DNA of 56,106 nt from Lachnospiraceae bacterium (lineage in GTDB: Bacteria; Bacillota; Clostridia; Lachnospirales; Lachnospiraceae): assembly GCA_017437785.1 (NCBI GenBank), contig JAFRXH010000089.1:1-56106 (forward strand), read 5' to 3'. Positions 3,491-56,106 of the stretch are shown here, one piece after another. The notes under the pieces were generated by a model. That model did not search any database. It was given only the letters and a program-made list of their open reading frames with translations, and was not told where the DNA came from. Within the stretch, counting starts at the first letter, position 1. Every line of letters starts with the position of its first letter. The translations under genes were made by a program, and so were the position numbers.

Positions 3491-5722
3491 CTACTTTATT
3501 TTGTAATCTTCTCCGGCCTTCAGCGATATCTCCGTTGTGCTTTCTTCATCATATCTTATACGGCAGTTACCGTCTGTCGCAGCATGAACGGATGCAGCTT
3601 GCAGCCTGCCGCCGCTCCAGCTCATATCGATCGTAAATCCGCCTTTAGCACGCAAGCCGCTTACGCTGCCGCTGCTCCACAAAACAGGCAATGCAGGCAG
3701 CAGCTTTATCTCCCCGTCTGTACATTGCAGCAGTGCTTCGGCTATAGCCGCGGTACCGCCGAAGTTTCCGTCGATCTGGAACGGCGGATGATTATCAAAC
3801 ATATTGGGATTGGTCGAGACGCTAAGCAGTTTCTTCAGGTTCTCATATACCTTATCCTTATCATGAAGACGTGCCCACATATTCGCTATCCACGCGCGGC
3901 TCCAGCCCGTGTGTCCGCCCCCGTGTGATAAGCGTCTGTCAAGTGTAGCCCTGGCCGCCTGAGCCAGCTTTGGCGTCTTCTGCGGCGTGATAAGCTCTGC
4001 CGGATGCAGCGCAAAAAGCTGTGAGATATGTCTGTGGCCTATCTCCACCTCATCATAATCAACGGCCCACTCTTTGATCTGTCCGTATTTGCCCACTTCG
4101 GGCTGCGGCAGACGCTCACGCATTTCCTTAAGCTTAGCTGCCAGTTCTCTGTCCGTATCAAGTATTTCGCTGCAGTCTATCACCGCACTAAAGAGACAGT
4201 TCAGTATCTGTGAGTCCATGGAAGGTCCCATGCACATGCGGCCTTCGGCACCTTCTTTTGTACGGTAGGTATTTTCGGGTGATACGGAAGGCCCTGTTAT
4301 CAGCCTTCCCTGCTCATCTTCCGTGAGATAATCGATAAAGAACTCTGCCGCTCCTTTTATCAGATGGAATCTTTCTTTCAGGAACTCCTTATCAAGGCTG
4401 TAGAGATAATGCTCATATACATGCAGTGCCAGCCATGCCCCGCTCATCGGCCAGATGGTAGCAGGTATCCATTTGTCCTGCGGTGCGCAGTCGCCCCAGA
4501 TATCGGTATTGTGATGGCATACAAAGCCCTTATCGATACCGTACATTTCCTTTGCTGCAGCATGACCGTTTTCAGCCACGCGCTCTAGCAGATCAAAGAG
4601 CGGCTCATGGCACTCTGCCAGATTACAGCTTTCTGCCGGCCAGTAATTCATCTCGGTATTTATGTTCACGGTAAACTTGCTGCCCCATGCGGGCCACATA
4701 CTGTCGTTCCATATGCCCTGAAGATTGAGCGGCTGTGTCCCCGGACGGCTTCCGCTTATCATAAGATACCTTCCGAAGTTAAAGTAAAGCTCCATCAGTT
4801 TATTGTCGGGATGCTCTTCTATCTTTTTAAGCCTCTCATCCGTAGGCAGGCCAGCATTACCCTCACTGTTATCATCAAGGTTCAGTTCCACGCGCCCATA
4901 CAGAGCCCTGTAATCCGCGATATGCGCCTCTCTCAATTCCTTATATGACTTACACAGCGCTTTCTCCACATCATTCACGGCCTGTTTTATATGATCCTTA
5001 CAATAAAAGCTGCTCCTTGCCCCCAGAACGATCACTGCCTCATCCGCATCCTCTATACGTATGGTATTGCCTACGCAGCGTTTGCTGCCGCCCGTGCACG
5101 CCGCATTCAGTGCAGCCGCAAAAAAGATCCCGTCGGCCGATCCCGTACCACCGCTGTATACTATATTTCCGTTCCCATCCCTTCTGCAGTCGTCAAAGTA
5201 ATCATCACGGCCGCCTATGCTTACACTGCAGGAAAGCTTTCCGGCACTCTGTGCTTTAAGGAAAATAACCATCACATTATCGGGAGCCGAAACGAATACC
5301 TCACGCAGATACCCCGTCCCCCTGTATGTATACTCCGTTACTGCTATAGCCTCCCCGGGGTCAAGCCGCCTTCTGTATGAACTAACTTCCGAACCATCAT
5401 GTCCGAAAAAAATATCCAGGTTTCCAAGCGGCATATAATGCCTGCTGTTTTCGGGGGTGCCCGCCATGGTATCCATAGCCAGGCGCTCGGCTTCATCAGT
5501 CTTTCCGGCTCTTAATAATTCACGTACCTTAAGCATCCCTTCACGCGCATCCGGATTTATACGATGGCGCAGTCCGCCCGACCATATCGAATCCTCGTTA
5601 AGTCCGATATGCTCCTTATCCGTAGCCCCATATACCATTCCGCCTATACGGCCGTTGCCTACAGGCAGTGCTTCGTCAAAACATGTTGCCGGCTTTTTGT
5701 ACCAGAGTATGTTATCACCCAT
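3491..5722 (-). CDS. Glycoside hydrolase family 95, probable alpha-L-fucosidase
   Basis: A 743-residue enzyme, normal length for GH95. The N-terminal signature ALPVGNGRIGGMVYG followed by HIGLNEDSIWSGG is characteristic. Further in are NTEMNYWPAESCNL, the SVSPENTY motif (family active-site region) and FQIDGNFGGTAAIAEALL. GH95 enzymes release alpha-1,2-linked L-fucose, or in some members L-galactose, by inversion. There is no signal peptide, so the protein should be cytosolic and act on imported oligosaccharides, for example mucin or milk glycan fragments. The start ATG 5722 has GGGAG 8 nt upstream. The gene ends in TAG. No sugar transporter is adjacent in the window. Confidence 0.93.
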   Translation of the reverse strand: MGDNILWYKKPATCFDEALPVGNGRIGGMVYGATDKEHIGLNEDSIWSGGLRHRINPDAREGMLKVRELLRAGKTDEAERLAMDTMAGTPENSRHYMPLGNLDIFFGHDGSEVSSYRRRLDPGEAIAVTEYTYRGTGYLREVFVSAPDNVMVIFLKAQSAGKLSCSVSIGGRDDYFDDCRRDGNGNIVYSGGTGSADGIFFAAALNAACTGGSKRCVGNTIRIEDADEAVIVLGARSSFYCKDHIKQAVNDVEKALCKSYKELREAHIADYRALYGRVELNLDDNSEGNAGLPTDERLKKIEEHPDNKLMELYFNFGRYLMISGSRPGTQPLNLQGIWNDSMWPAWGSKFTVNINTEMNYWPAESCNLAECHEPLFDLLERVAENGHAAAKEMYGIDKGFVCHHNTDIWGDCAPQDKWIPATIWPMSGAWLALHVYEHYLYSLDKEFLKERFHLIKGAAEFFIDYLTEDEQGRLITGPSVSPENTYRTKEGAEGRMCMGPSMDSQILNCLFSAVIDCSEILDTDRELAAKLKEMRERLPQPEVGKYGQIKEWAVDYDEVEIGHRHISQLFALHPAELITPQKTPKLAQAARATLDRRLSHGGGHTGWSRAWIANMWARLHDKDKVYENLKKLLSVSTNPNMFDNHPPFQIDGNFGGTAAIAEALLQCTDGEIKLLPALPVLWSSGSVSGLRAKGGFTIDMSWSGGRLQAASVHAATDGNCRIRYDEESTTEISLKAGEDYKIK

Positions 5723-5779
5723 TCGCTATTCTCCCTTTTATAGATTGCATGCGTGGCGACATGCACGCCATATACAATA

Positions 5780-5827
5780 CGATCAGGTCACCCCGCAGCA
5801 TAACAACGCAGGGTACAGGCCTGATCG
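5780..5827 (-). terminator. Hairpin, probable terminator of the 1168-aa gene
   Basis: CGATCAGG and CCTGATCG pair perfectly at the base, and an inner ACCCTGCG/TGCGGGGT stem forms with G-U pairs. It starts 16 bp after the stop of the large secreted-protein gene. No U-tract follows, so termination may be weak or the hairpin may protect the 3' end. Confidence 0.4.
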
Positions 5828-5842
5828 TAAAGTTACTTGTGT

Positions 5843-8800
5843 TTAATCGGCAATTATCATGCCCTTCCAGTTGTTGATCCAGTCATGTTTCTCAAGCTTA
5901 ACAATATTGAACTTGATCGTCAGCGTTCCGCCGTAATTGCCAAGTCCTCTTACTGTAACGCTCGCTTTACCTGCCTCAATATTGTTGCTGTATCCCACTA
6001 TCTCAAACTCATTCGTCTTAAGACCGTTTGTAAAGCGGATATCCGATCTGTTAAGGATTATCTCGCTTCCGGTATATACCTGATCGGCAATATTGGCCTT
6101 AAACTTCGATATGGACTGGGTAATAAGTCTGTAGCGTATACGAATGGATCCGGTATAATTTCCCTTGCCGTTGACCCTCACGTGGAGAAGCGTGCCTGCA
6201 TCGGGAATATCATCATCTCCTACCGGAGCACCTGCTACTCTCAATTCCGCAGCAGTCTTTCCCTTTACATGCACATAGCAGTTTTCGTCATAACGGTAAG
6301 CCAGGTCCTTATTATCATAATCCGTTCCGGCTTTTAACTTCTTTCCTGTAGTATCATAGATGACAGGCTTGCATACATAGTTGCCGGGCTTATTCTTCCA
6401 TACCACATCTGTGGCTGTTCCCTCAAGCCCTCCTATAAACTGGGGAAGGATGGAAAACTTATAGGGCCCAAGCTTTCCTTTATAACCGCCCTTGCCCTCG
6501 ACTGTGAACGAAGGAGCCTTTGCTGCCGACTGATTAGCCGCCTTTTTGTTGTTCTTATAAGTAACCTTATAGTCGATTCCCTCACGAAGGTAGACGTATT
6601 CATCTCCGTTCTTCCTTCCTACCAGCATATCGATCTTCGTTCCGCCTTTTTGATAGATAGCCAGTACATCCGGTGATACTTCATACTGTCCCTTTGATAT
6701 ATCTACCTTGTTTATCTTGTACTTTTTGGATATGCTGCCCTTATAGCCGGCCTTTTCAAGTCCGGTTACCACTACAGTAGCCTTTCCTGCCTTATCACCG
6801 TTCTTATAGCTTATCAGATAATCCTCACCTTCAGTGAGCACCTCCGATCCCTTGTTTACGGAAACCGTAGGATAACATCCGTCGGGACTGTAATCATATA
6901 CTTCCTGGCTGAGTTTTATGGTTACAGCCTTTTTAAAGTTTTCAAGTTTCTCAGCTGCGGGTATCTCTTTCTTCTTTTCTACAACCTTAAATGCATGCTT
7001 AAGCTCACCCATGTAATTGCCGGTACCACGGATAGTGACAGTATAATCTCCCGCTTTGGACAGATCTACCTCGTCAGTATCCACGAAAAAGTCAACACCG
7101 GCTTTAAGCTTTCTGCCGCCAAGCGTAAGCTTGATCCTGATATCCTTTTCGGTTGAACCGGCTACTGCTCCGGCCCCTGCCACCTGGGCATAAGACAGAT
7201 CTGCAGGTGCGATATAAAAGCTCTTATTAAGCTCCGCAACGATATTGCCCTTAAACTTAAAGCAGGCATTTGCGGAAGACGTTTCCGTTGACGCATTGAT
7301 GTTATTACTGTACTTGATCGTGTAGTCTTTCTTATAGATAAGTCTCCTGTTATTATAGTACACTCTGAAGGAATCCGGCTTAAGTGCCTTTCCGGTATAA
7401 GTGAGTTCAGGCATGGATGCCTCTGCTACCCAAAGTCCCTTAGGCAGGTCAGCCGGTGTTTCATATTCACCTCTGTCTAATGTTATAACATCGCCCCAGT
7501 CATTGCTGTCCAGCATATAGAGCCAGTCAGTATGATCACTTACCTTATAGATCTTATTACCGCTCACATCCAGCGCTTCTTTTACTGCAACTGCTCTGAT
7601 GTAGCTGTTCCCCGAAATAGTGATAGGTTCCGAATACTTTGTAAAATAAGCATTATCCTCGGTCTCTTTTCCGGGAGTATATACAGCAGCTCTTTTCTTT
7701 TGATCTTCTTCACCGAATTCCCATTCTATACTGCCGTCCTCATCAACATGTACCACATACCCATAGATGAGATAATAGATATCTGCTCCTAAAGTATCGC
7801 AACTGAGCCTTACCCTGGTGTCCTTGGATATTACGACATCCCCGGGTATCGCATATACATCACAGATCTCATCATCACCGTCTACCGTTATCTCGACAGA
7901 TGCTTTGACCTTATTATAATCATCTGTAGGCAGCGCCCATACCTTGGTCTTTCCTGCTCCGGCCCCTTCTAAGACATAAGGGTCATTTTTCTTGGCAGGT
8001 TTCTTGATACGTACCACCTTATCATTGTCGGCTTTTAACGTAAAGCTGGTATCATCTGCATCCAGCGGCAATACCTTTACCGTTGCCGTAGTGGTATCGT
8101 CCAAAGCTACTACAGTATTATTCACACTGATACTGATCGACTTAACATGCACTATAACATGTACGGGATAAGTAAAGCTGAACTCCTTGTTTGCAAGCTT
8201 GATCGTAGCGGTGATATTGCCGTCTGTACCTTCATCCGCTTTTACGGTGAGCTTGTTGTTCTTTATGGATGCCTGCAGCTTGTTATCTGCTTTCCATACA
8301 GGTGCATCGGTGATGACCGGGAGCTTCGCATTCTCCGGCTTATGCTCCCTGCTCACTACATATCCGCTGAAAGTCGGCAGATCCTTTGCAACATTTGTAT
8401 CTACTTTTATCTTTGTCCCTGCTGCCAGGCTGGCACTAACATCCTTATTGCTTAAGAACTTATCAAGGACGTCAATCGTAACATTAACGTCCTCGACACG
8501 GGGATTACGGTTAGCCAGGTTGGTGGGGAATTCCGTAAGCTCCAGTGCCCAGTAATGAGTCCCCTGGAATACCACGTGTCCTACTGCCATATAATGGTAA
8601 CTGTCGCTTAGTAAGGAATTAAGCGATACGCTCCTAAATATATTAGCAGCCTCTCCTCCGTTGGCTCCTTCACGGATCAGTATCTCTTTTCTTGCTTTGC
8701 CCTTAGCGGTATCGTTATCATTGTAGATAGTATCATAGTTTCTTCCGTCGGGTCTGGTATTTGAATAGTAGATAGCAGCCTCGGCAGCACGCAGGGTAGC

Positions 8801-9472: not shown

Positions 9473-12400
9473 TCATCCACCCATAAGATCAAATAATGAT
9501 ATCTGGTTGGAACTTGTCATATTGCCCAGTATGCCCAGCTTGTCCAGTGTTTCCATAACGGTCTGGCTGGTCTTGGTCCTTTGCATGAAATCGTCCTTTG
9601 AAAGGAACTCGCCCCTGGCTGCCGCATCCTCTATCAGCTCCGCATTCTTATCACCCAGACCCGATATCGATGTAAAGGAAGGCATGATCTTTCCGTCCAC
9701 TACCTGGAAATAAGATGCCTTAGCCTTATAAAGGTCGATGGTCGTGAACTCAAAACCGCGCGCATACATCTCCTGCACGATACGCATATCATCGTAGGTA
9801 TCCTTATCCTTCGGCAATGCGGTCTTATCATTTAGCTTCGACTTGATGATAGCCATGTGCTCTTCAAGTCTTGCCTTTCCCAGACACATCAGCTCGTAAT
9901 CAAAAGCCGATGCCCTTATGGAGAAATATGCACAGTAATATGCCAGCGGATAGTTTATCTTGCAGTATGCTATACGCCAGGCCATCATTACATAAGCAGC
10001 CGCATGAGCCTTGGGGAACATATACTGTATCTTTGAGCAGGACTCTATATACCATTCCGGGACGTTATGCTCACGCATGTGATCCGTCCATACCGCCCAC
10101 TTTTCGTCGACCTTATGCTTGGCCACAGCGCCCTTTCGCACGGCTTCCATGATATTAAAGGATTCCTCGCTCTCAAGCCCCATCTGTATCAGATAGGTCA
10201 TGATATCATCACGTGTACATACGGCTGTTGATATGGTCGCTATACCGTTCAGTATCAGATCCTTTGCATTTCCCAGCCACACATCTGTACCGTGGGAAAG
10301 TCCCGATATACGCACCAGATCGGCAAAACTCTTAGGCTGTGCATCTATAAGCATCTGCATTGCGAAGTCGGTACCGAATTCCGGTATACCCAGCGCTCCC
10401 AGCTGCGTCCCTCCTATATCGTCCGGCGTTATCCCCAGTGCCGACGTATTCTGGAACAGGCTCATGACCCCCTTATCGTCCAGCGGTATCGTCAAAGGAT
10501 CGATACCTGTTATATCCTGCAGCATCCTTATCATCGTAGGATCATCATGCCCCAGTATATCCAGCTTTAAGAGGTTATGGTCTATGGAATGGTAATCAAA
10601 GTGAGTGGTCACCGTATCCGTTTCCAGGTCGTTCGCGGGGTGCTGTGTAGGTGTGAACGAATTGATATCTTCGCCCACAGGCAGCACCACTATACCGCCG
10701 GGATGCTGTCCGGTAGTACGCCTTATGCCCACGATATTGGGAACCATACGTTCCACTTCCACGTCACGCTTTACTATACCGTTCTCGCGGAAGTAATTCT
10801 TTATATAGCCGAATGCCGTCTTATCTGCCACGGTACCTATGGTACCGGCACGATAGGTCTGGCCGGCGCCGAATATAACCTCGGTATATTTGTGCGCTTT
10901 CGACTGATACTCACCTGAAAAATTAAGATCGATATCCGGCTCCTTGTTTCCCTTAAATCCCAGGAAAGTCTCAAAAGGTATGTCGAATCCGTCCTTCTTA
11001 AGTTCCGCTCCGCATCTGGGGCATTTCTTAGAAGGCATATCGCAGCCCGCGGTACCCGCATAGGCCTTAACCTCCGGGGAGTCAAAGTCACTGTAATGGC
11101 ACTCAAGGCAGTAGTAATGCGGCGAAAGGGGATTTACCTCCGTTATACCGGCCATGGTAGCAACAAAGGACGAACCTACCGAACCACGTGAACCTACCAG
11201 ATATCCGTCTTCCACCGATTTCCAAACCAGCTTCTGCGCTATTATGTACATAACGGCAAACCCGTTGCTGATTATGGAATTCAGCTCTCTCTCGAGTCTT
11301 GCCTCCACTATCTGCGGCAGCGGATCTCCGTACATCTCATGCGCCTTGTCATAGCATATCTTACGCAGCGTCTTGTCGGAATCCGCTATTACAGGCGGGC
11401 ACTTATCCGGCCTTACCGGGCTGATACGGTCGCACATATCCGCTATAAGATTGGTATTGGTTATGACCACTTCCTCTGCCTTGTCAAACCCAAGGTAGGA
11501 GAACTCGTTAAGCATCTCCTCCGTGGTATGAAGATACATGCTCTTTGCATCGTTACGTGCCTTATCCACACGTTTCCCCGCAAGTATTATCGTGCGGTAT
11601 ATCGCATCCTCGGGCTCAATGTAATGCACATCTCCCGTAGCGCATACCGGCTTGTTGTATATCTCTCCCAGCTGTACTATGCGCTTGTTCACGGCTATCA
11701 GGTCATCTACCGTCTGCAGCGTGGGCAGCTTTGAATTTTCCAGCTGGAATTCATTATTGCCTATAGGCTGTATCTCCAGATAATCGTAAAAATCGATTAT
11801 CTCTGCTATCTCTTCATCGGTCTTTCCGTTGATGATGGCCTGGTAGAGCTCGCCGTTGGAGCAGCCGCTGCCCACTATCAGTCCTTCCCTGTATTTGATC
11901 AGTTCCGAACGCGGTATACGCGGATACGGCCAGCGTGCGTTGCGCCCGAAGTACTTAAGGTGAGAGAGGCTTACCAGCTTATACAGATTACGCCTTCCTA
12001 CCTCATTTTTGGCTATTATCACGGCATGATCGGGGTGCAGATCGGCTATCTTATCCTCACTGAGCTGCGACGCAGCATTAAGCTGGGTCAGGTTCTCTAT
12101 CTTGCGCTCCTTTAGCATCTCAAGGAACTTAACAAAGATCAGCGCCGTAGCCTCCGCATCATCAACAGCCCTGTGATGATGGAATGCCGGTATGTTCAGT
12201 TCTTTTGCCAGGTGGTCCAATGTATATTTACCCATGCGGTGCATGAGGAGCCTGGCCAGATCGATGGTATCGGTATGTGTAAAATCATATGTAAGCCCCA
12301 GTTCACCCGCAAAATGCCTGATGAATGAGGTATCAAATCCCGCATTATGCGCAACCAGCACGCAGCCCTCGCAGAACTTAAGAAACTGCGGCAGTATCAC

Positions 12401-49645: not shown

Positions 49646-51760
49646 CTAATTTCTGCGTCTGTAATACCAGATCCCAAGACCGACCATCAGCACGGCCCCC
49701 GGGATCAGCCCCGTAAGGATCAGTGATATCACTCCCCTTGCGGTGGGATCCACAAGTATGGGATCATAGCTGTAAGGCTTAACCGGTACATCGGCCTCCG
49801 CTTCAGTCTCGGAAAGCTTGAGCAGGCTTCGCATGAAAAGCTCATAGTTACTGCCGTTAACAGCCATATTGATATCTTTATACAGGAAGTAGTCCGTAGT
49901 ATAGGTCACTACCCTGCTGACTCCGCCGGCTCCGTATCTCTCTGTGTATACACCCAGTGAGAAAGGCCCCTTTTCCATGTCGCGTCCCACTTTTATATAG
50001 GCACTGTCCGTGGTGCGCAGGAAAGTAATGCCGCTCACATCGGCCGTTTCCTTAAGGCGTATGCCTCTTGAGAACGGCATGTAGATAAAACGTGTACGCC
50101 CCGTAGTATATACAGATCTTGTCAGCTCACCTTCGATTATCTCCGGCAGCAGAAATTCCGCTGTCCCGTTATAATATGCGGGGTCCGCCTCGCTCACCAC
50201 TCCGGGCAGGACTTCCATACCAAAGTCCGCCAGCAGGCTGTAGAAATTATTAAGCTCGGCCCCCTCTGTATATCCGGTTATGAATAACGCAGCCTTGCCC
50301 TTCTCCATGAAGCGCTTAAGCTTCACCAGGTCATCATCATTCATATCCTTTACCGGCGCCAGTACGAATACGATATCGCCGTCATCGGGGATATCTTCGT
50401 GAAGCAGCAGGTTTATGGATTCCATATCGTATCCGGCATTTGCGATACGTGTATTGAGCTCTTCATCCGGCTCAAACTCATCATGTCCCGTGATGCAGTA
50501 AATCTTGGGCACATGGTCGTTTATAACATAGCGGACGGCGCTCATTATACGGCCTTCTCCGTCGTACCCCGATACATGATAGTCGGTGGTGACGTAGCCG
50601 CCTTCGGTCACATCATATGCATAATCGTAGCTCACCTGATAACAGTCGTAATAATTAACCACGCGGCTCTTGCTTCCGCTTACCACGATCATACTGTTGG
50701 ATAGCGGCTCCACATCCGTATAATCCAGATAAAAATACGGATTCTCCTTAGGATCGATATAGTCCACCTTGACAAATCCGCTGCTCTCTTCCATACGGTT
50801 AAGCGTAGCGTCCAGGGTCTCATCCTTATCCTCATCATTTACCAGAACGTATATCTGCACGGCGCGGTCTAAGTTTGCCAGTGTACGCCTGCTCTCATCC
50901 GTGATGGAACGGATGCCGTTATAAGTAAGGTCGATACTCTTGCTTTCGTAAGGAAGCGCCCTTACACCGATGTTTATAACGACCACCGCTGCAGTGACCA
51001 GCACTATCTTAAGCGTATTGGCCAGCGCCCAGGGGATGCCGTGTGTACGCACCGAAAAACGTCTTGCTGCCAGCATCTGCTCGGTATAGAAAAGCGAAAG
51101 TACCACGACCGAAATATAATATACATAATCGGGCAGGTAGAGCACGCCGTACAAGCTGTTGTCAAACGGCCCGGTAAGGTCGAATATCGAGAGCGCCGAC
51201 GTAAGCATATTCCCGTCGCGGCTTATCATGCCGCTTATAGCCTTTATCATCGCGCTTAGCAGCAGCACAAAGAAACTCAGCACAGCCGCTATCATCTGGT
51301 TCTCGGTCAGGGAAGAGATAAAGACTCCCAGTCCCAGGGCAGCCAGACCGAAGAAAAAGAAGCCCACAACCGCCAGCACGTTTTCGTTAAACGGTACATC
51401 CCCGTATATCCTCATGATCAGCGGGTATGCCAGCATCACGGGGAATACCGGAAGGAATACCGCAACTGCAGCCAGATACTTGCCCACAACTATCTGCCAC
51501 AGCCTTACCGGCGACGTGAACAGCAGCTGGTCCGTGCGGTGGCGTTTTTCCTCCGCAAAGCTGCGCATCGTGATAAGAGGCATGGTAAAGATAAATATGA
51601 ACAGCACCGCATCAAGGATATAAGAAAGATACGGCATGCCGTTTGTCAGTCCGTAATACCTGAAGTACCAGCCCATAAAAAACAGCGTTATGGCCAAAAA
51701 CAGCCAGCCGCTCAGATTACGGAAGCTTCCGAGCCACTCTTTTTTAAATACCGCCCACAT
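49646..51760 (-). CDS. ABC transporter permease fused to a GldG-like extracytoplasmic domain
   Basis: A 704-residue fusion. Residues 1 to about 240 are an ABC-2-type permease with about six helices (MWAVFKKEWLGSFRNLSGWL, and FAEEKRHRTDQLLFTSPV, the GldF-like motif). After a further helix (about 250-268), residues 270-660 form a GldG-like domain (LDRAVQIYVLVNDEDKDETL; KIYCITGHDEFEPDE; LKRFMEKGKAALFITG). A last helix is near 675-698 (GVISLILTGLIPGAVLMVG), followed by YYRRRN. In many bacteria GldF and GldG are separate proteins. Start ATG 51760 overlaps the ATPase gene by 17 bp behind GGAGGAGG. It ends in TAG. Substrate unknown. Confidence 0.85.
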   Translation of the reverse strand: MWAVFKKEWLGSFRNLSGWLFLAITLFFMGWYFRYYGLTNGMPYLSYILDAVLFIFIFTMPLITMRSFAEEKRHRTDQLLFTSPVRLWQIVVGKYLAAVAVFLPVFPVMLAYPLIMRIYGDVPFNENVLAVVGFFFFGLAALGLGVFISSLTENQMIAAVLSFFVLLLSAMIKAISGMISRDGNMLTSALSIFDLTGPFDNSLYGVLYLPDYVYYISVVVLSLFYTEQMLAARRFSVRTHGIPWALANTLKIVLVTAAVVVINIGVRALPYESKSIDLTYNGIRSITDESRRTLANLDRAVQIYVLVNDEDKDETLDATLNRMEESSGFVKVDYIDPKENPYFYLDYTDVEPLSNSMIVVSGSKSRVVNYYDCYQVSYDYAYDVTEGGYVTTDYHVSGYDGEGRIMSAVRYVINDHVPKIYCITGHDEFEPDEELNTRIANAGYDMESINLLLHEDIPDDGDIVFVLAPVKDMNDDDLVKLKRFMEKGKAALFITGYTEGAELNNFYSLLADFGMEVLPGVVSEADPAYYNGTAEFLLPEIIEGELTRSVYTTGRTRFIYMPFSRGIRLKETADVSGITFLRTTDSAYIKVGRDMEKGPFSLGVYTERYGAGGVSRVVTYTTDYFLYKDINMAVNGSNYELFMRSLLKLSETEAEADVPVKPYSYDPILVDPTARGVISLILTGLIPGAVLMVGLGIWYYRRRN

Positions 51761-52712
51761 CTTCTGCCTCCTCCTTCATGGGCCGTATGAAGGTAAGTTC
51801 CAGATAAACTTCCTCCAGGGTAACCTGACGCCCCGTCATTTCAAGTATTGTATAGCCTGCCTTTATGCAGGCTTGGGAAAGCACTTCCCTGACATCCTTT
51901 CCCTTTTTGGCCGTAACCTCTATGGTGCAGGATTCGGAATCTTCCTTGCAGACCTTGTGACTCTCTATATCCTTGATCTTGTCCATGGCGCGTTCGGCAG
52001 CCGTGGCATTGCCCTTAAGCACCAGGCTCAGACGCTGCTGCTCATTATACTCCTTCACCAGATGCTCCGGAGTATCATCAGCGACCAGCCTGCCGCCCGA
52101 TAAGATCATCACGTGATCGCACAGACTGCTTACTTCACTGAGTATATGAGTGGAGAAGATCACAGTATGATCCTCTTTAAGTCTGCGTATCAGCTCACGC
52201 ATCTCTACTATCTGCCTGGGATCCAGACCGGATGAGGGCTCATCCAGTATTATCAGTTCGGGATCGCCCGTGATGGCCTGGGCCAAGCCCACTCTCTGCT
52301 TGTAGCCTTTTGATATCTGCTTGATCAGATGCTGCTTGACATAGCCCAGGGCCAGCAGCTCCTCAACGCGCTCCACTTCCTTGCGCTTTTCCTTGCCCAT
52401 AAGGCCTTTGAGCTCGGCAGCAAAACCAAGATATTCCGATACGGTCATATCCGGATACAGAGGCGGTACTTCGGGAAAATATCCTATATGTCTTTTAGCC
52501 TTGACGGGATTTTTGATCATAGAGATATCATTGATGAGTATCTCTCCGCTTCCGGGCGCAAGATAACCGCTTATCATGTTCATGGTGGTACTCTTACCCA
52601 CACCGTTAGGACCTAAAAAGCCGTATATCTTTCCCTTCTGGGTCTCGAAAGATATATCCTTTACGATCTCGCGTCCTCCGTATGCCTTACACAGATTCTC
52701 AACTTTAAGCAC
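51744..52712 (-). CDS. ABC transporter ATP-binding protein (GldA-like)
   Basis: A 322-residue ATPase. Walker A is GPNGVGKSTT, the Q-loop region is IGYFPEVPPLYPDMT, the signature is degenerate (ISKGYKQRVGLAQAI), Walker B is LIILDEPSSGLDP and the H-loop is STHIL. The C-terminal about 80 residues form the regulatory extension typical of ABC-2 export ATPases. The start is GTG 52712; its GAGAGGTA site overlaps the stop codon of the glycosyltransferase-like gene 12 bp upstream, so expression is coupled. It overlaps its permease by 17 bp. Confidence 0.92.
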   Translation of the reverse strand: MLKVENLCKAYGGREIVKDISFETQKGKIYGFLGPNGVGKSTTMNMISGYLAPGSGEILINDISMIKNPVKAKRHIGYFPEVPPLYPDMTVSEYLGFAAELKGLMGKEKRKEVERVEELLALGYVKQHLIKQISKGYKQRVGLAQAITGDPELIILDEPSSGLDPRQIVEMRELIRRLKEDHTVIFSTHILSEVSSLCDHVMILSGGRLVADDTPEHLVKEYNEQQRLSLVLKGNATAAERAMDKIKDIESHKVCKEDSESCTIEVTAKKGKDVREVLSQACIKAGYTILEMTGRQVTLEEVYLELTFIRPMKEEAEDVGGI

Positions 52713-52724
52713 TTCTTCTACCTC

Positions 52725-53570
52725 TCATACCACGGCATCCTTAAGCTCTTCAAGCGATGCCGCTGTTTCATACATATCCGGAAATTCCCTTTTCATCCTC
52801 TCCATGCAGCGTCTGACAAATCCCCGTCTTTCGTCCATATTATACTTAAATACATTCTTGTGCCCCCATAGATGTGTGAAGGTATTCTGCTCTCTGAGCC
52901 CCTCCATATCGGGACAGAAAGAATGTACGCTTAAGCCTCTTGCCGCCGCACACATCGGCAGTATACGCTGTTCGGCAAAAACCATCGGGCACAGATTATC
53001 ATCCGTATGCCGGATGTTTTGCATAAAACGCAGAGACTCCCTAACATAATAATCCCTGAAATCATTATCTCTTATATAGAGCATGGCCGTATTGGCCGGA
53101 CGGATCTTAAAATCCCAGTCTCCCGGATAGCGGTAAGACTCATTCATGGGAAAGCTCCCCGGATCGGGATAGATAGCCGGATTAAGCTCTTCTCTGTGTA
53201 TCACTGCTATCGACTTGTCCCTTAAATGCCTGCCCAGGCTGTTCCATATTATCAGATCCGTATCTATCATGACCGAAGGCATATCTTCAAGCTTAAGGGC
53301 GCACAGCTTTCCCGCCGCCCAGAAAACCTTAGGGTCTATGTCATCAGGCACCGAAAATATCTCCATTCCGCGCGAGAAGATCCGATCAAGCCCCCTGTCC
53401 ATAAAAAAAGCGCCGGATGCCTTATCGGCGTATAATTTAGTCCTGCCGTTATAGTTTTCGTAAGATGCTACCGACAGCATAAGACACGCCAGCTCATAAT
53501 CCTGCAGGGCGAAACCGCCGTCTTTTCCGGCACCTGCCGGTTTTGTCCATATCGAATAAAAACCGTTCAT
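52725..53570 (-). CDS. Putative GT-A-fold glycosyltransferase-like protein (DUF6734-like)
   Basis: A 281-residue soluble protein. FYSIWTKP at the N-terminus, TKLYADKASGAFFMD, VFWAAGKLCALKLEDMPSVMIDTDLIIW with a D-T-D motif at about residues 98-100, and FTHLWGHKNVFKYN near the C-terminus together match what I remember of the DUF6734 family. That family looks like a GT-A nucleotide-sugar transferase; the D-T-D would hold the metal and sugar nucleotide. It begins 3 nt after the stop of the Gly-Ser-Tyr repeat gene and ends 12 nt before the ABC ATPase gene. It may glycosylate Ser or Tyr of the repeat protein, but that is inference from order alone. Confidence 0.65.
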   Translation of the reverse strand: MNGFYSIWTKPAGAGKDGGFALQDYELACLMLSVASYENYNGRTKLYADKASGAFFMDRGLDRIFSRGMEIFSVPDDIDPKVFWAAGKLCALKLEDMPSVMIDTDLIIWNSLGRHLRDKSIAVIHREELNPAIYPDPGSFPMNESYRYPGDWDFKIRPANTAMLYIRDNDFRDYYVRESLRFMQNIRHTDDNLCPMVFAEQRILPMCAAARGLSVHSFCPDMEGLREQNTFTHLWGHKNVFKYNMDERRGFVRRCMERMKREFPDMYETAASLEELKDAVV

Positions 53571-53573
53571 ATT

Positions 53574-54668
53574 CTAGATAAGATCCAATCCGTATCCCAG
53601 CTCCTCGATAAGGCGCCTGATCACAAATCCTTCCTGCTTATCCTCTCCACCGGCGTTATTTACCGTATCCGCCGTCTTCCTCTCCGATCCCACGCATACA
53701 TCCGCAAACCCGCCGTATATAAAACTGCCGCGGTGATAACTGCCGTTATAAAAACTGCCAGTAAGGAAATACCTCCCCGTGAAGCTGCCGTTTATATAGC
53801 TTCCTCTTGTGTAGCTGCCTCTGATATAGCTGCCAAGCCCTAAGCTTCCGCCTGTATAGGAAGATGCCGTATAGCTCCCCGTTCCGAACGTAAATCCCTT
53901 AAAGCTGCCCGCAAATTCGCTGTAGCTGCCGCCATAAAAGTAGTTCCGGTAACTGCCCGCCCCGAACAGGAGCTTTAAATAACTGCTGCCTCCGAAGAAC
54001 CAGCTGAGATAACTTCCGGATAATCCGCCCTTATAACTGCCACCGGCATTTATATAGCTGCCGCGTACATAGCTGCTGTGCTGATACGAACCATGTATGT
54101 AACTTCCCGCTGCGTAATGCATGCTCACAAAACTGCCTTTTCGGTATGAACCGTGCAAATAGGAACTGCGGGAGAAACTTCCCCTTCCGCCCCCCACGGG
54201 TCCCGGCACGTTTTCTTTTGCGGCTGCCTTCATCACCGGCATAAGCTCAGGGGCTTCATTACCCATAAATACCAGTCCTTCGGGCGCTTTCACATCACAG
54301 CCGTTAAAGTACAGGTCAAACACCGCATCCTTATCAGCCAGGGCCATGCTCTCGACATACAGCCGCCCCTGCTTGGCATAAAGCTTTACGAAAACAGGAA
54401 ATCCATGCCCGCACTTAAGCATCTCTCCGGCTCTTTCAGCATCACAATGCATCATAAAGCCGCCCTCGGGCAGAGGATTTACCAGCTTGGAGTTAAACTC
54501 ATGATTCCATACGGTATATACCGCAAACGCATTAAACTCCGGGCAATAGTTTTCATACGACAAAAAGGCATATCCGCTATGAAATGCCGCCAGTTCGTTT
54601 ATTCTGTTATCGTATGTGCGGACAGATTCCCCCTCCGGCCTGTCCAGCCATGTGAATCTACCAGCCAT
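53574..54668 (-). CDS. Gly-Ser-aromatic pentapeptide-repeat protein (364 aa), function unknown
   Basis: Residues 1 to about 155 are a globular domain I do not recognise (FLSYENYCPEFNAFAVY; PEGGFMMHCDAERAGEM). Residues about 163-326 are a repeat of five: G-S-(Y/F)-x-x. I count 23 (G/S)-S-(Y/F) triplets. Nine pentads run in perfect register at the start, about six in the middle and fourteen at the end, with Tyr, Phe or occasionally Leu always at position 3. This spacing equals that of pentapeptide-repeat beta-helices (A-D/N-L-x-x) with G-S-aromatic in place of A-D-L. There is no signal peptide or membrane helix. A 38-residue mixed tail follows. Start ATG 54668 has a weak AAGGG site. It ends in TAG, 3 nt before the glycosyltransferase-like gene. 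Confidence 0.8.
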   Translation of the reverse strand: MAGRFTWLDRPEGESVRTYDNRINELAAFHSGYAFLSYENYCPEFNAFAVYTVWNHEFNSKLVNPLPEGGFMMHCDAERAGEMLKCGHGFPVFVKLYAKQGRLYVESMALADKDAVFDLYFNGCDVKAPEGLVFMGNEAPELMPVMKAAAKENVPGPVGGGRGSFSRSSYLHGSYRKGSFVSMHYAAGSYIHGSYQHSSYVRGSYINAGGSYKGGLSGSYLSWFFGGSSYLKLLFGAGSYRNYFYGGSYSEFAGSFKGFTFGTGSYTASSYTGGSLGLGSYIRGSYTRGSYINGSFTGRYFLTGSFYNGSYHRGSFIYGGFADVCVGSERKTADTVNNAGGEDKQEGFVIRRLIEELGYGLDLI

Positions 54669-54713
54669 AGCTGCCCTTCATGTAGTTTTTGCGCATATAT
54701 ACCAATATATTAC

Positions 54714-54760
54714 CATAAAATAAGGAGCAATAAAAGGATTATTTTTCCTTCTAAAGCTCC
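54714..54760 (-). terminator. Terminator after dut
   Basis: On the minus strand GGAGC...GCTCC closes a hairpin with an inner AAGGA/TCCTT stem (54760-54724), followed by TTATTTTA. It separates nrdG-dut from the repeat-protein operon, whose start lies about 46 bp further. No strong promoter is visible in that gap. Confidence 0.65.
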
Positions 54761-55795: not shown

Positions 55796-56106
55796 GATTA
55801 GCGTCGCTCATCCGTCAAAATGCTTCGCATTTCGCCGACTTCCGGCTCTCCTATCTGTTTTCGCGATTAGCGACGATCATCCGTCAAAATGCTTCGCATT
55901 TCGCCGGATGTCCGGCTCTCTTATCTGTTTTCGCGATAAGCGACGATCATCCGTCAAAATGCTTCGCATTTCGCCGGCTTCAGGCTCTCCTATCTGTTTT
56001 CGCGATTAGCGACGATCATCCGTCAAAATGCTTCGCATTTCGCCGGATGTCCGGCTCTCTTATCTGTTTTCGCGATTAGCGACGATCATCCGTCTAAATG
56101 CTTCGC
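55796..56106. repeat. Tandem repeat array of alternating 69- and 70-bp units
   Basis: Four full units and a fifth cut by the window edge start at 55796, 55865, 55935, 56004 and 56074. Units 2 and 4 (70 bp) appear identical. Units 1 and 3 (69 bp) share CTTC in place of GATGTC and differ from each other at a few bases. The higher-order unit is thus about 139 bp. Each unit holds AAATGC-TTC-GCATTT; in 70-bp units this nests inside an outer CATCCG/CGGATG stem. No unit-to-unit unique spacer exists and no continuous reading frame was noted. Confidence 0.9.

Follow-up and report, generated by a model that had tools for sequence, protein, structure and literature searches.

What does a locus encode in which a low-complexity repeat protein, a putative sugar transferase and a pair of ATP-binding cassette (ABC) transporter genes lie packed on one strand? 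The locus in question lies on contig JAFRXH010000089.1 of a Lachnospiraceae bacterium, whose 56,106 nucleotides are the window analysed here; the source genome comprises 3.2 Mb in 107 contigs, and three named genomes close to it are Lachnospiraceae assembled from metagenomes, one of them from sheep rumen. We found that the recurring unit of this locus is two genes, one for a protein with a conserved C-terminal tail and one for a member of the uncharacterized family DUF6734, and we suggest that the DUF6734 protein may recognize the tail and glycosylate its bearer.

All four open reading frames (ORFs) are on the minus strand and are flanked by dut and gltX, names taken from ORF similarity; dut was identified as a dUTPase gene by profile match, and gltX is our presumed name for the other flanking gene. 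A preliminary description of this DNA had noted the tight packing of the ORFs and the GTG start of the ATPase gene, both of which the ORF coordinates bear out (gaps of 3 nt and 12 nt, then a 17-nt overlap, along the operon order), as well as a permease-GldG fusion, for which PF12698 and PF09822 both exceed their cut-offs. It mentioned neither the C-terminal GYGLDLI nor the DUF6734 assignment. The principal features are as follows.

53574..54668, minus strand: tagged repeat protein gene, 364 aa, with an N-domain, a GS(Y/F) low-complexity body and a GYGLDLI tail; an ORF with a homologue in 32/35 genus genomes
54243..54668, minus strand: N-terminal domain, about residues 1–142, seen only in its own genus; alignment of 32 sequences with 8 invariant columns
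53694..54194, minus strand: low-complexity G/S/Y/F body with period 5, residues 159–325; lag-5 count z 7.8 against shuffles
53577..53597, minus strand: C-terminal tail GYGLDLI, proposed recognition tag; kept in genus proteins and co-occurring with DUF6734 across genomes
52725..53570, minus strand: DUF6734 protein, 281 aa, proposed tail-directed glycosyltransferase; PF20508 at 41.7 bits, homologue in 33/35 genus genomes
53256..53264, minus strand: D-T-D motif, residues 103–105 of the DUF6734 protein; both D identical in 46/46 homologues
51744..52712, minus strand: ABC ATPase (GldA/DrrA-like), 322 aa, GTG start; PF00005; neighbour outside the recurring unit, not present in one subclade that has the cassette
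49646..51760, minus strand: ABC-2 permease fused to a GldG-like domain, 704 aa; PF12698 and PF09822 over cut-off; neighbour outside the recurring unit, missing in the same subclade

The recurring unit comprises two genes

Among the 35 genomes of the genus, 32 carry a homologue of the repeat protein and 33 a homologue of the DUF6734 protein. The two genomes without DUF6734, G317 and G318 (72% and 81% complete), are also without the repeat protein, and in G331 DUF6734 is present and only the final 66 residues of the tagged ORF remain at a contig end. A tagged ORF lies immediately upstream of DUF6734 in 33/33 genus loci (32 scored by script and L070 by hand; contig ends truncate the ORF in L086, L090 and L096). 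That the repeat protein and the transferase-like gene form a unit, as the preliminary description had supposed, is thus well supported, and the pairing recurs in other families with different N-terminal parts.

That description went further and proposed a system in which the transferase-like enzyme glycosylates the repeat protein and the adjacent ABC pair exports or displays it. ABC genes do lie behind DUF6734 in 26/33 genus loci, counting L074, where only the ATPase is on the contig; one locus, L098, is unjudgeable. They are, however, absent from 6/32 informative loci (L079–L084), and three of these genomes (G004, G321 and G324) have no GldFG-like match genome-wide at E 1e-10; in the other three (G299, G303 and G328) the only GldFG-like match is 32–33% identical and lies elsewhere in the genome. 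Outside the genus, 1/19 class loci has an ABC ATPase-like ORF no more than 5 kb from DUF6734. Tabulating neighbours across genomes thus upheld the expected co-occurrence of DUF6734 and the repeat protein, but not that of the ABC pair, and export or display found no support, the window repeat protein being without a stretch of high hydropathy. Nor do the ABC neighbours reach the equivalog level of the gliding proteins GldA and GldF (TIGR03522 at 301.7 against a cut-off of 402.6; TIGR03518 at 90 against 288.5). A four-gene interpretation is not supported; the subclade that has the cassette but no ABC genes behind it goes largely against the ABC reading, and on this ground we set that reading aside as very improbable.

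Several loci of spore-forming relatives also raise the prospect of a spore-coat or exosporium glycoprotein system like that of BclA and SgtA, since CotJB- and CotJC-like ORFs lie upstream of the cassette in L085, L091, L092 and L095 and a GerA-like ORF in L091 and L092 (CotJB was identified by profile; the CotJC-like and GerA-like names are presumed). SpoIVA is nevertheless matched in 7/35 genus genomes, the source genome of the window not among them, and CotJB exceeds its cut-off in 6/35, against 33/35 for DUF6734. The promoter-like box upstream of the repeat gene, moreover, appears to resemble the housekeeping type. Given the SpoIVA and DUF6734 counts, we regard a spore-coat role as highly unlikely and set it aside.

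The C-terminal tail is the best conserved feature of the repeat protein

Neither Pfam nor NCBIfam contains a family that the 364-aa window protein matches at E up to 1. A profile of its N-terminal domain matched 3/397 family genomes, all of them from its own genus; weak matches in G135 and G236 (E 0.005 and 0.009) were dropped for internal stops, and a match to the repeat protein in G297 (E 3.6e-6), an 80-aa frame overlapping a longer Thr/Glu-repeat ORF in L003, was taken as chance. The aromatic pentapeptide repeats of the preliminary description proved real: residues 159–325 contain 25 Y/F pairs at lag 5, where shuffled sequences average 8.2 (z 7.8; 0/2000 shuffles as high), and the 23 (G/S)S(Y/F) starts in the body are spaced by 5 residues in 12/22 cases and by 10 in 6/22. 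The body varies strongly among species of the genus, taking the form of GSF-N pentapeptides, of 14-residue GSYRGIG-GSYRSLx units, of 14-residue TSYRAFGTYNFLGE units or of FGSG stretches; the homologue in L087, unlike the window protein, matches PF01469 at 1.9e-34.

The tail proved to be the best conserved feature of the protein. It ends 32/33 of the genus proteins that were found by homology and have their C-terminal end on the contig, a set collected without searching for the tail, and the peptide is constant while its codons vary. The single exception is a frame in L096 that overlaps the tailed frame, in a repeat gene that seems to be frame-broken or at an assembly edge.

Two genomes show unusual forms of the repeat gene. 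In G301 (L096:2-720) it is apparently frame-broken inside the body, with the N-terminal part and the tail in overlapping frames. In G309 (L071:1880-2095) the 3' end of the gene, including the tail codons, is repeated about four times in differing frames before DUF6734, one copy reading GYGPDLI.

The pairing extends across Clostridia

DUF6734 was found in 20/391 genomes of the class, spread over 10/223 genera including that of the window, and in 41/70 genomes of one other family. Beyond the genus we examined 19 class loci and 24/31 further loci of that other family (those for which the search gave a locus), and a tagged ORF stands right before DUF6734 in 14/19 and 16/24 of these, respectively. 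Over all Clostridia loci together, the tagged ORF ends between -60 and +300 nt from DUF6734 in 63/76 (61 pairs by script; L070 and L207 by hand, the script having misplaced the enzyme start). When 12 ORFs adjoining DUF6734 in the class were picked for their position and their Gly/Ser/Tyr/Phe content, 12/12 ended in the tail, whose spellings include GYGINLI, GYGIDLI, GYGLELI, GYGIHLI and GYGVNLI; looser tail patterns revealed no other tail form beside DUF6734.

What precedes the tail is exchangeable. The N-terminal parts of the partners fall into seven groups without mutual similarity (blastp 1e-4), of 30, 19 and 6 members plus four singletons, and seven partners have no such part, four being cut by the contig and three (L142, L182 and L225) short by nature. 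Besides the tail, the partners mostly share a Ser-rich low-complexity body, composed of SGSGSGSG in one family and of TSYTTSY or GSFGSF in another, with a YEYEYE tract frequent.

Of the 13 loci in which no tagged ORF adjoins DUF6734, 11 belong to genus g421 and 2 to genus g473. A whole-genome search of five g421 genomes with the tail pattern turned up a tagged low-complexity ORF at another site in every one; that of G778 runs off the contig end, and a second match in G778 falls in a 10-aa frame. The tagged gene in these five genomes (L181–L185) is unlinked to DUF6734 and directly precedes a putative peptidase gene, which we take to be of type U32. In the 19 class loci, the ORFs of 100 aa or more that lie up to 5 kb from DUF6734 include no family present in more than 3/9 genera; the two that reach 3/9 are the tagged partner itself and a membrane protein that precedes the partner in four loci.

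Searches of viral contigs returned no relative of the repeat protein or of DUF6734, searches of phages none of DUF6734, and PHROGs gave one weak compositional match, for a relative only. The only plasmid records found were two from Bacteroidota, in which stronger DUF6734 members lie beside small bacteriocin-like peptides: in L227 (4101-7554) a small peptide at 5718-5912 has a GG-leader-like match below curated cut-offs, and in L239 (1426-12165) a Cys-rich small peptide at 10351-10542 is accompanied by a lantibiotic dehydratase. Proteins of the vitamin K epoxide reductase (VKOR)/thioredoxin type lie near DUF6734 in both.

Plasmid neighbourhoods of this composition are what a system for ribosomally synthesized and post-translationally modified peptides (RiPPs) might look like. 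The tagged protein would then be a precursor that DUF6734 modifies in or near the tail, for instance at the Tyr of GYG, to yield a small peptide or a C-terminal fragment; nothing but the tail is shared by every partner, and the partners in L182, L142 and L215 measure only about 60–80 aa. Most partners, however, are 130–480 aa with long bodies. RiPP precursors typically vary in the core and keep the part used for recognition, and the fixed tail looks like the latter. No dedicated protease or exporter is apparent among the neighbours, which were not all annotated by profile, and no further family exceeds 3/9 genera. We consider a RiPP-like pathway unlikely.

The tail pattern co-occurs with DUF6734 across genomes

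The pattern GYG(L/I/M/F)x(L/F)I-stop, in which one ambiguity also admits a following Trp, was searched in two sets of genomes, with DUF6734-negative status resting on the PF20508 profile, which is imperfectly sensitive. In a set of 53 genomes, it was present in 34/35 DUF6734-positive and 1/18 negative genomes (Fisher p ~1e-11), the positive genome missed being G720 and the single negative match an 8-aa frame. In 382 genomes of the class, the counts were 19/20 and 15/362. The one positive genome missed there, again G720, carries GYGLNII at the end of a 61-aa ORF directly before DUF6734; counting it, a tagged ORF at least 60 aa long is present in 20/20 of the DUF6734-positive class genomes.

The background of the pattern is above zero. 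All 15 matches in negative genomes fall in frames of 7–45 aa, and they occur at a chance rate, since the pattern read backwards, used as a control, matches at a similar rate (three matches in the 53 genomes; 17 matches, in 16 genomes, among the 382). Extra matches in positive genomes were a 154-aa frame without a low-complexity body in G794 and an 8-aa frame in G004.

DUF6734 as a candidate sugar transferase

The window enzyme matches PF20508 over residues 6–269 of 281 (cut-off 27 bits), and 46/46 aligned homologues match the profile at E up to 1. The D-T-D motif pointed out in the preliminary description is indeed present, and D103, D105, N160, E200, Q201, H233, G236 and K238 are identical in 46/46 homologues. 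Twelve enzymes of glycosyltransferase family 8 (GT8) agree with this arrangement in the succession of DxD, N (11/12), DQ and H, and the spacings in DUF6734 lie inside the GT8 ranges, although this comparison was made post hoc with 30 invariant columns to choose from. In GT8, these motif residues have metal- and phosphate-binding roles. A profile alignment with GT8 places the first three motifs in register, below significance. We regard the GT8 comparison as suggestive, and a sugar transferase with a GT-A-like fold as our best guess for DUF6734.

The GT8-like motif order would also suit a scaffold or primer inside the cell, of a condensate-forming or glycogenin-like kind, at which DUF6734 initiates a polysaccharide; the tail would then anchor the enzyme without directing dense protein glycosylation. 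The absence of a high-hydropathy stretch from the window protein agrees with such a role, as does a G/S/Y-rich composition resembling that of condensate-forming proteins. On the other hand, no polysaccharide-making family recurs among the neighbours, and the SGSGSG forms of the body are without aromatic residues; a scaffold or primer of this kind strikes us as rather improbable.

Proposed mechanism

From co-occurrence, adjacency, a conserved tail, exchangeable N-terminal parts and identical catalytic-type residues, all directly observed, we infer that DUF6734 may act on its partner by sugar transfer, with the tail as a docking site and a residue of the partner as acceptor. The reading we prefer, and to which we give an even chance, is a two-gene enzyme-substrate cassette in which DUF6734, a GT-A-like enzyme with a DxD motif, docks on the C-terminal tail and glycosylates the partner. 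The repeat protein would probably be cytoplasmic when made, with GYG(L/I)xLI at its extreme C-terminus; DUF6734 would dock there and then add sugars to the partner, most likely to serines of the low-complexity body, as serine is the sole hydroxyl residue plentiful in all body forms (Tyr and Thr are nearly absent from the SGSGSG forms). The tail is common to all partners, is absent, within the pattern used, from ORFs longer than 45 aa in the 362 DUF6734-less genomes and is constrained at the protein level; docking on it is the simplest mechanism. The SgtA/BclA3 pair described below offers a precedent, and the two Bacteroidota plasmids, with DUF6734 next to small peptides, also count in favour of the cassette. 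With the tail supplying recognition, the body and the N-terminal part would be free to change. The tail may thus mark the repeat protein for DUF6734, and glycosylation of that protein is plausible. As the product, a scaffold inside the cell or on its surface seems to us likelier than a secreted factor. The broader proposal, that GYG(L/I)xLI is a transferable address tag which marks otherwise unrelated proteins of several clostridial families for DUF6734 so that any bearer becomes glycosylated, is more tentative, and we lean slightly against it.

Several points weigh against the preferred cassette. No significant similarity to a known glycosyltransferase was found: a profile search of the PDB gave one irrelevant match, to an antibody chain at E 0.6; Pfam Nucleotid_trans was reached at best at E 0.077, in 2/46 homologues; and hhalign against GT8 gave E 0.08 with a probability of 0.7%, compared with 0.41 and 0.45 for GT-B controls. 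AlphaFold models, with four sequences each, were unusable (mean predicted local distance difference test scores of 27.1 and 40.5, the latter for DUF6734). The partners in L133 and L215 are nearly without a low-complexity body, which raises the possibility that the target lies elsewhere. The logo over 62 partners, G-Y-G-(L/I/V)-x-(L/I)-I, comes from a set gathered with the tail pattern, and its fixed letters are partly so by construction. The whole-genome tail search took in five of the 13 unlinked genomes, all of g421; the other eight are six of g421 and two of g473 (L210 and L213). Finally, neither of the two Bacteroidota plasmid loci has any GYG-type tail, and the family, if it acts on peptides there, would use another signal.

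The cassette provides DUF6734 with concrete candidate substrates and with a recognition signal open to direct test. Should the tail suffice for modification, it would offer a new portable way for bacteria to label proteins and would explain a group of fast-changing Ser/Gly/Tyr-rich proteins that have their last seven residues in common. The open-licence PMC papers searched contain no mention of DUF6734, PF20508, IPR046621 (which we take to be the accession of DUF6734) or four tail spellings, and no precedents for motif and substrate were found; a tail-directed bacterial protein modification, absent from that literature, would have enzyme relatives in peptide-making loci of Bacteroidota.

Flanking features of the window and its relatives

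Two features between dut and the repeat gene, and several further observations, lie outside the two-gene unit.

54707..54715, minus strand: extended -10-like box TGGTAATAT upstream of the repeat gene, a putative promoter element; similar box in the closest relatives by MAFFT alignment
54724..54757, minus strand: hairpin separating dut and the repeat gene, possibly a weak terminator; 34-nt stretch, about -10.7 kcal/mol

The counterpart of the box in L068 reads TGATATAAT in the MAFFT alignment of the closest relatives; a consensus scan did not list the box at 54707..54715. The preliminary description had placed a terminator at 54714; a hairpin does stand close by, but it is absent from the output of the consensus terminator scan. 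At 55800-56106, upstream of nrdG, a direct-repeat array of about 60-nt units with hairpins extends to the end of the window. Among the relatives, G315 (L069:11060-14386) has a 1108-aa ORF between dut and the repeat gene, presumably secreted and metallopeptidase-like, and G304 (L093:5968-7488) has an ORF upstream of the cassette that we take to be serine recombinase-like.

Comparison with known systems

The window protein resembles pentapeptide-repeat proteins (PF01469 and relatives) in its period-5 aromatic repeats, but it differs from them in having no Pfam match, and other partners have SG, TSY or FGSG bodies. DUF6734 resembles GT8 enzymes such as WaaO and WaaJ in the order and spacing of DxD, N, (D/E)Q and H; LgtC and glycogenin are further GT8 examples. 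Unlike these, it is without the PW that follows the H motif and is invariant in 12 GT8 rows, and it has no significant profile similarity to them. Glycocins are RiPPs that likewise place a glycosyltransferase beside a ribosomally made substrate. They are short peptides with N-terminal leaders, whereas the fixed element here is C-terminal and partners reach more than 400 aa.

The nearest demonstrated analogue is the SgtA/BclA3 pair of Clostridioides difficile. SgtA, of GT-A type, is encoded immediately upstream of bclA3 and adds O-linked N-acetylglucosamine (O-GlcNAc) to the Thr of repeat peptides in vitro (PMC7157674). The BclA3 repeats are, unlike those here, collagen-like GPT repeats on the spore surface, SgtA has tetratricopeptide (TPR) repeats, and the passages on the pair name no GYGxxLI tail (PMC7157674). 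Collagen-like GXX repeats do not occur here, the window body being GS(Y/F)xx with period 5, and 28/35 genus genomes are without a SpoIVA match. What the two systems have in common is that the enzyme gene adjoins the gene for a repeat protein, here as a tagged ORF adjacent to DUF6734 across Clostridia.

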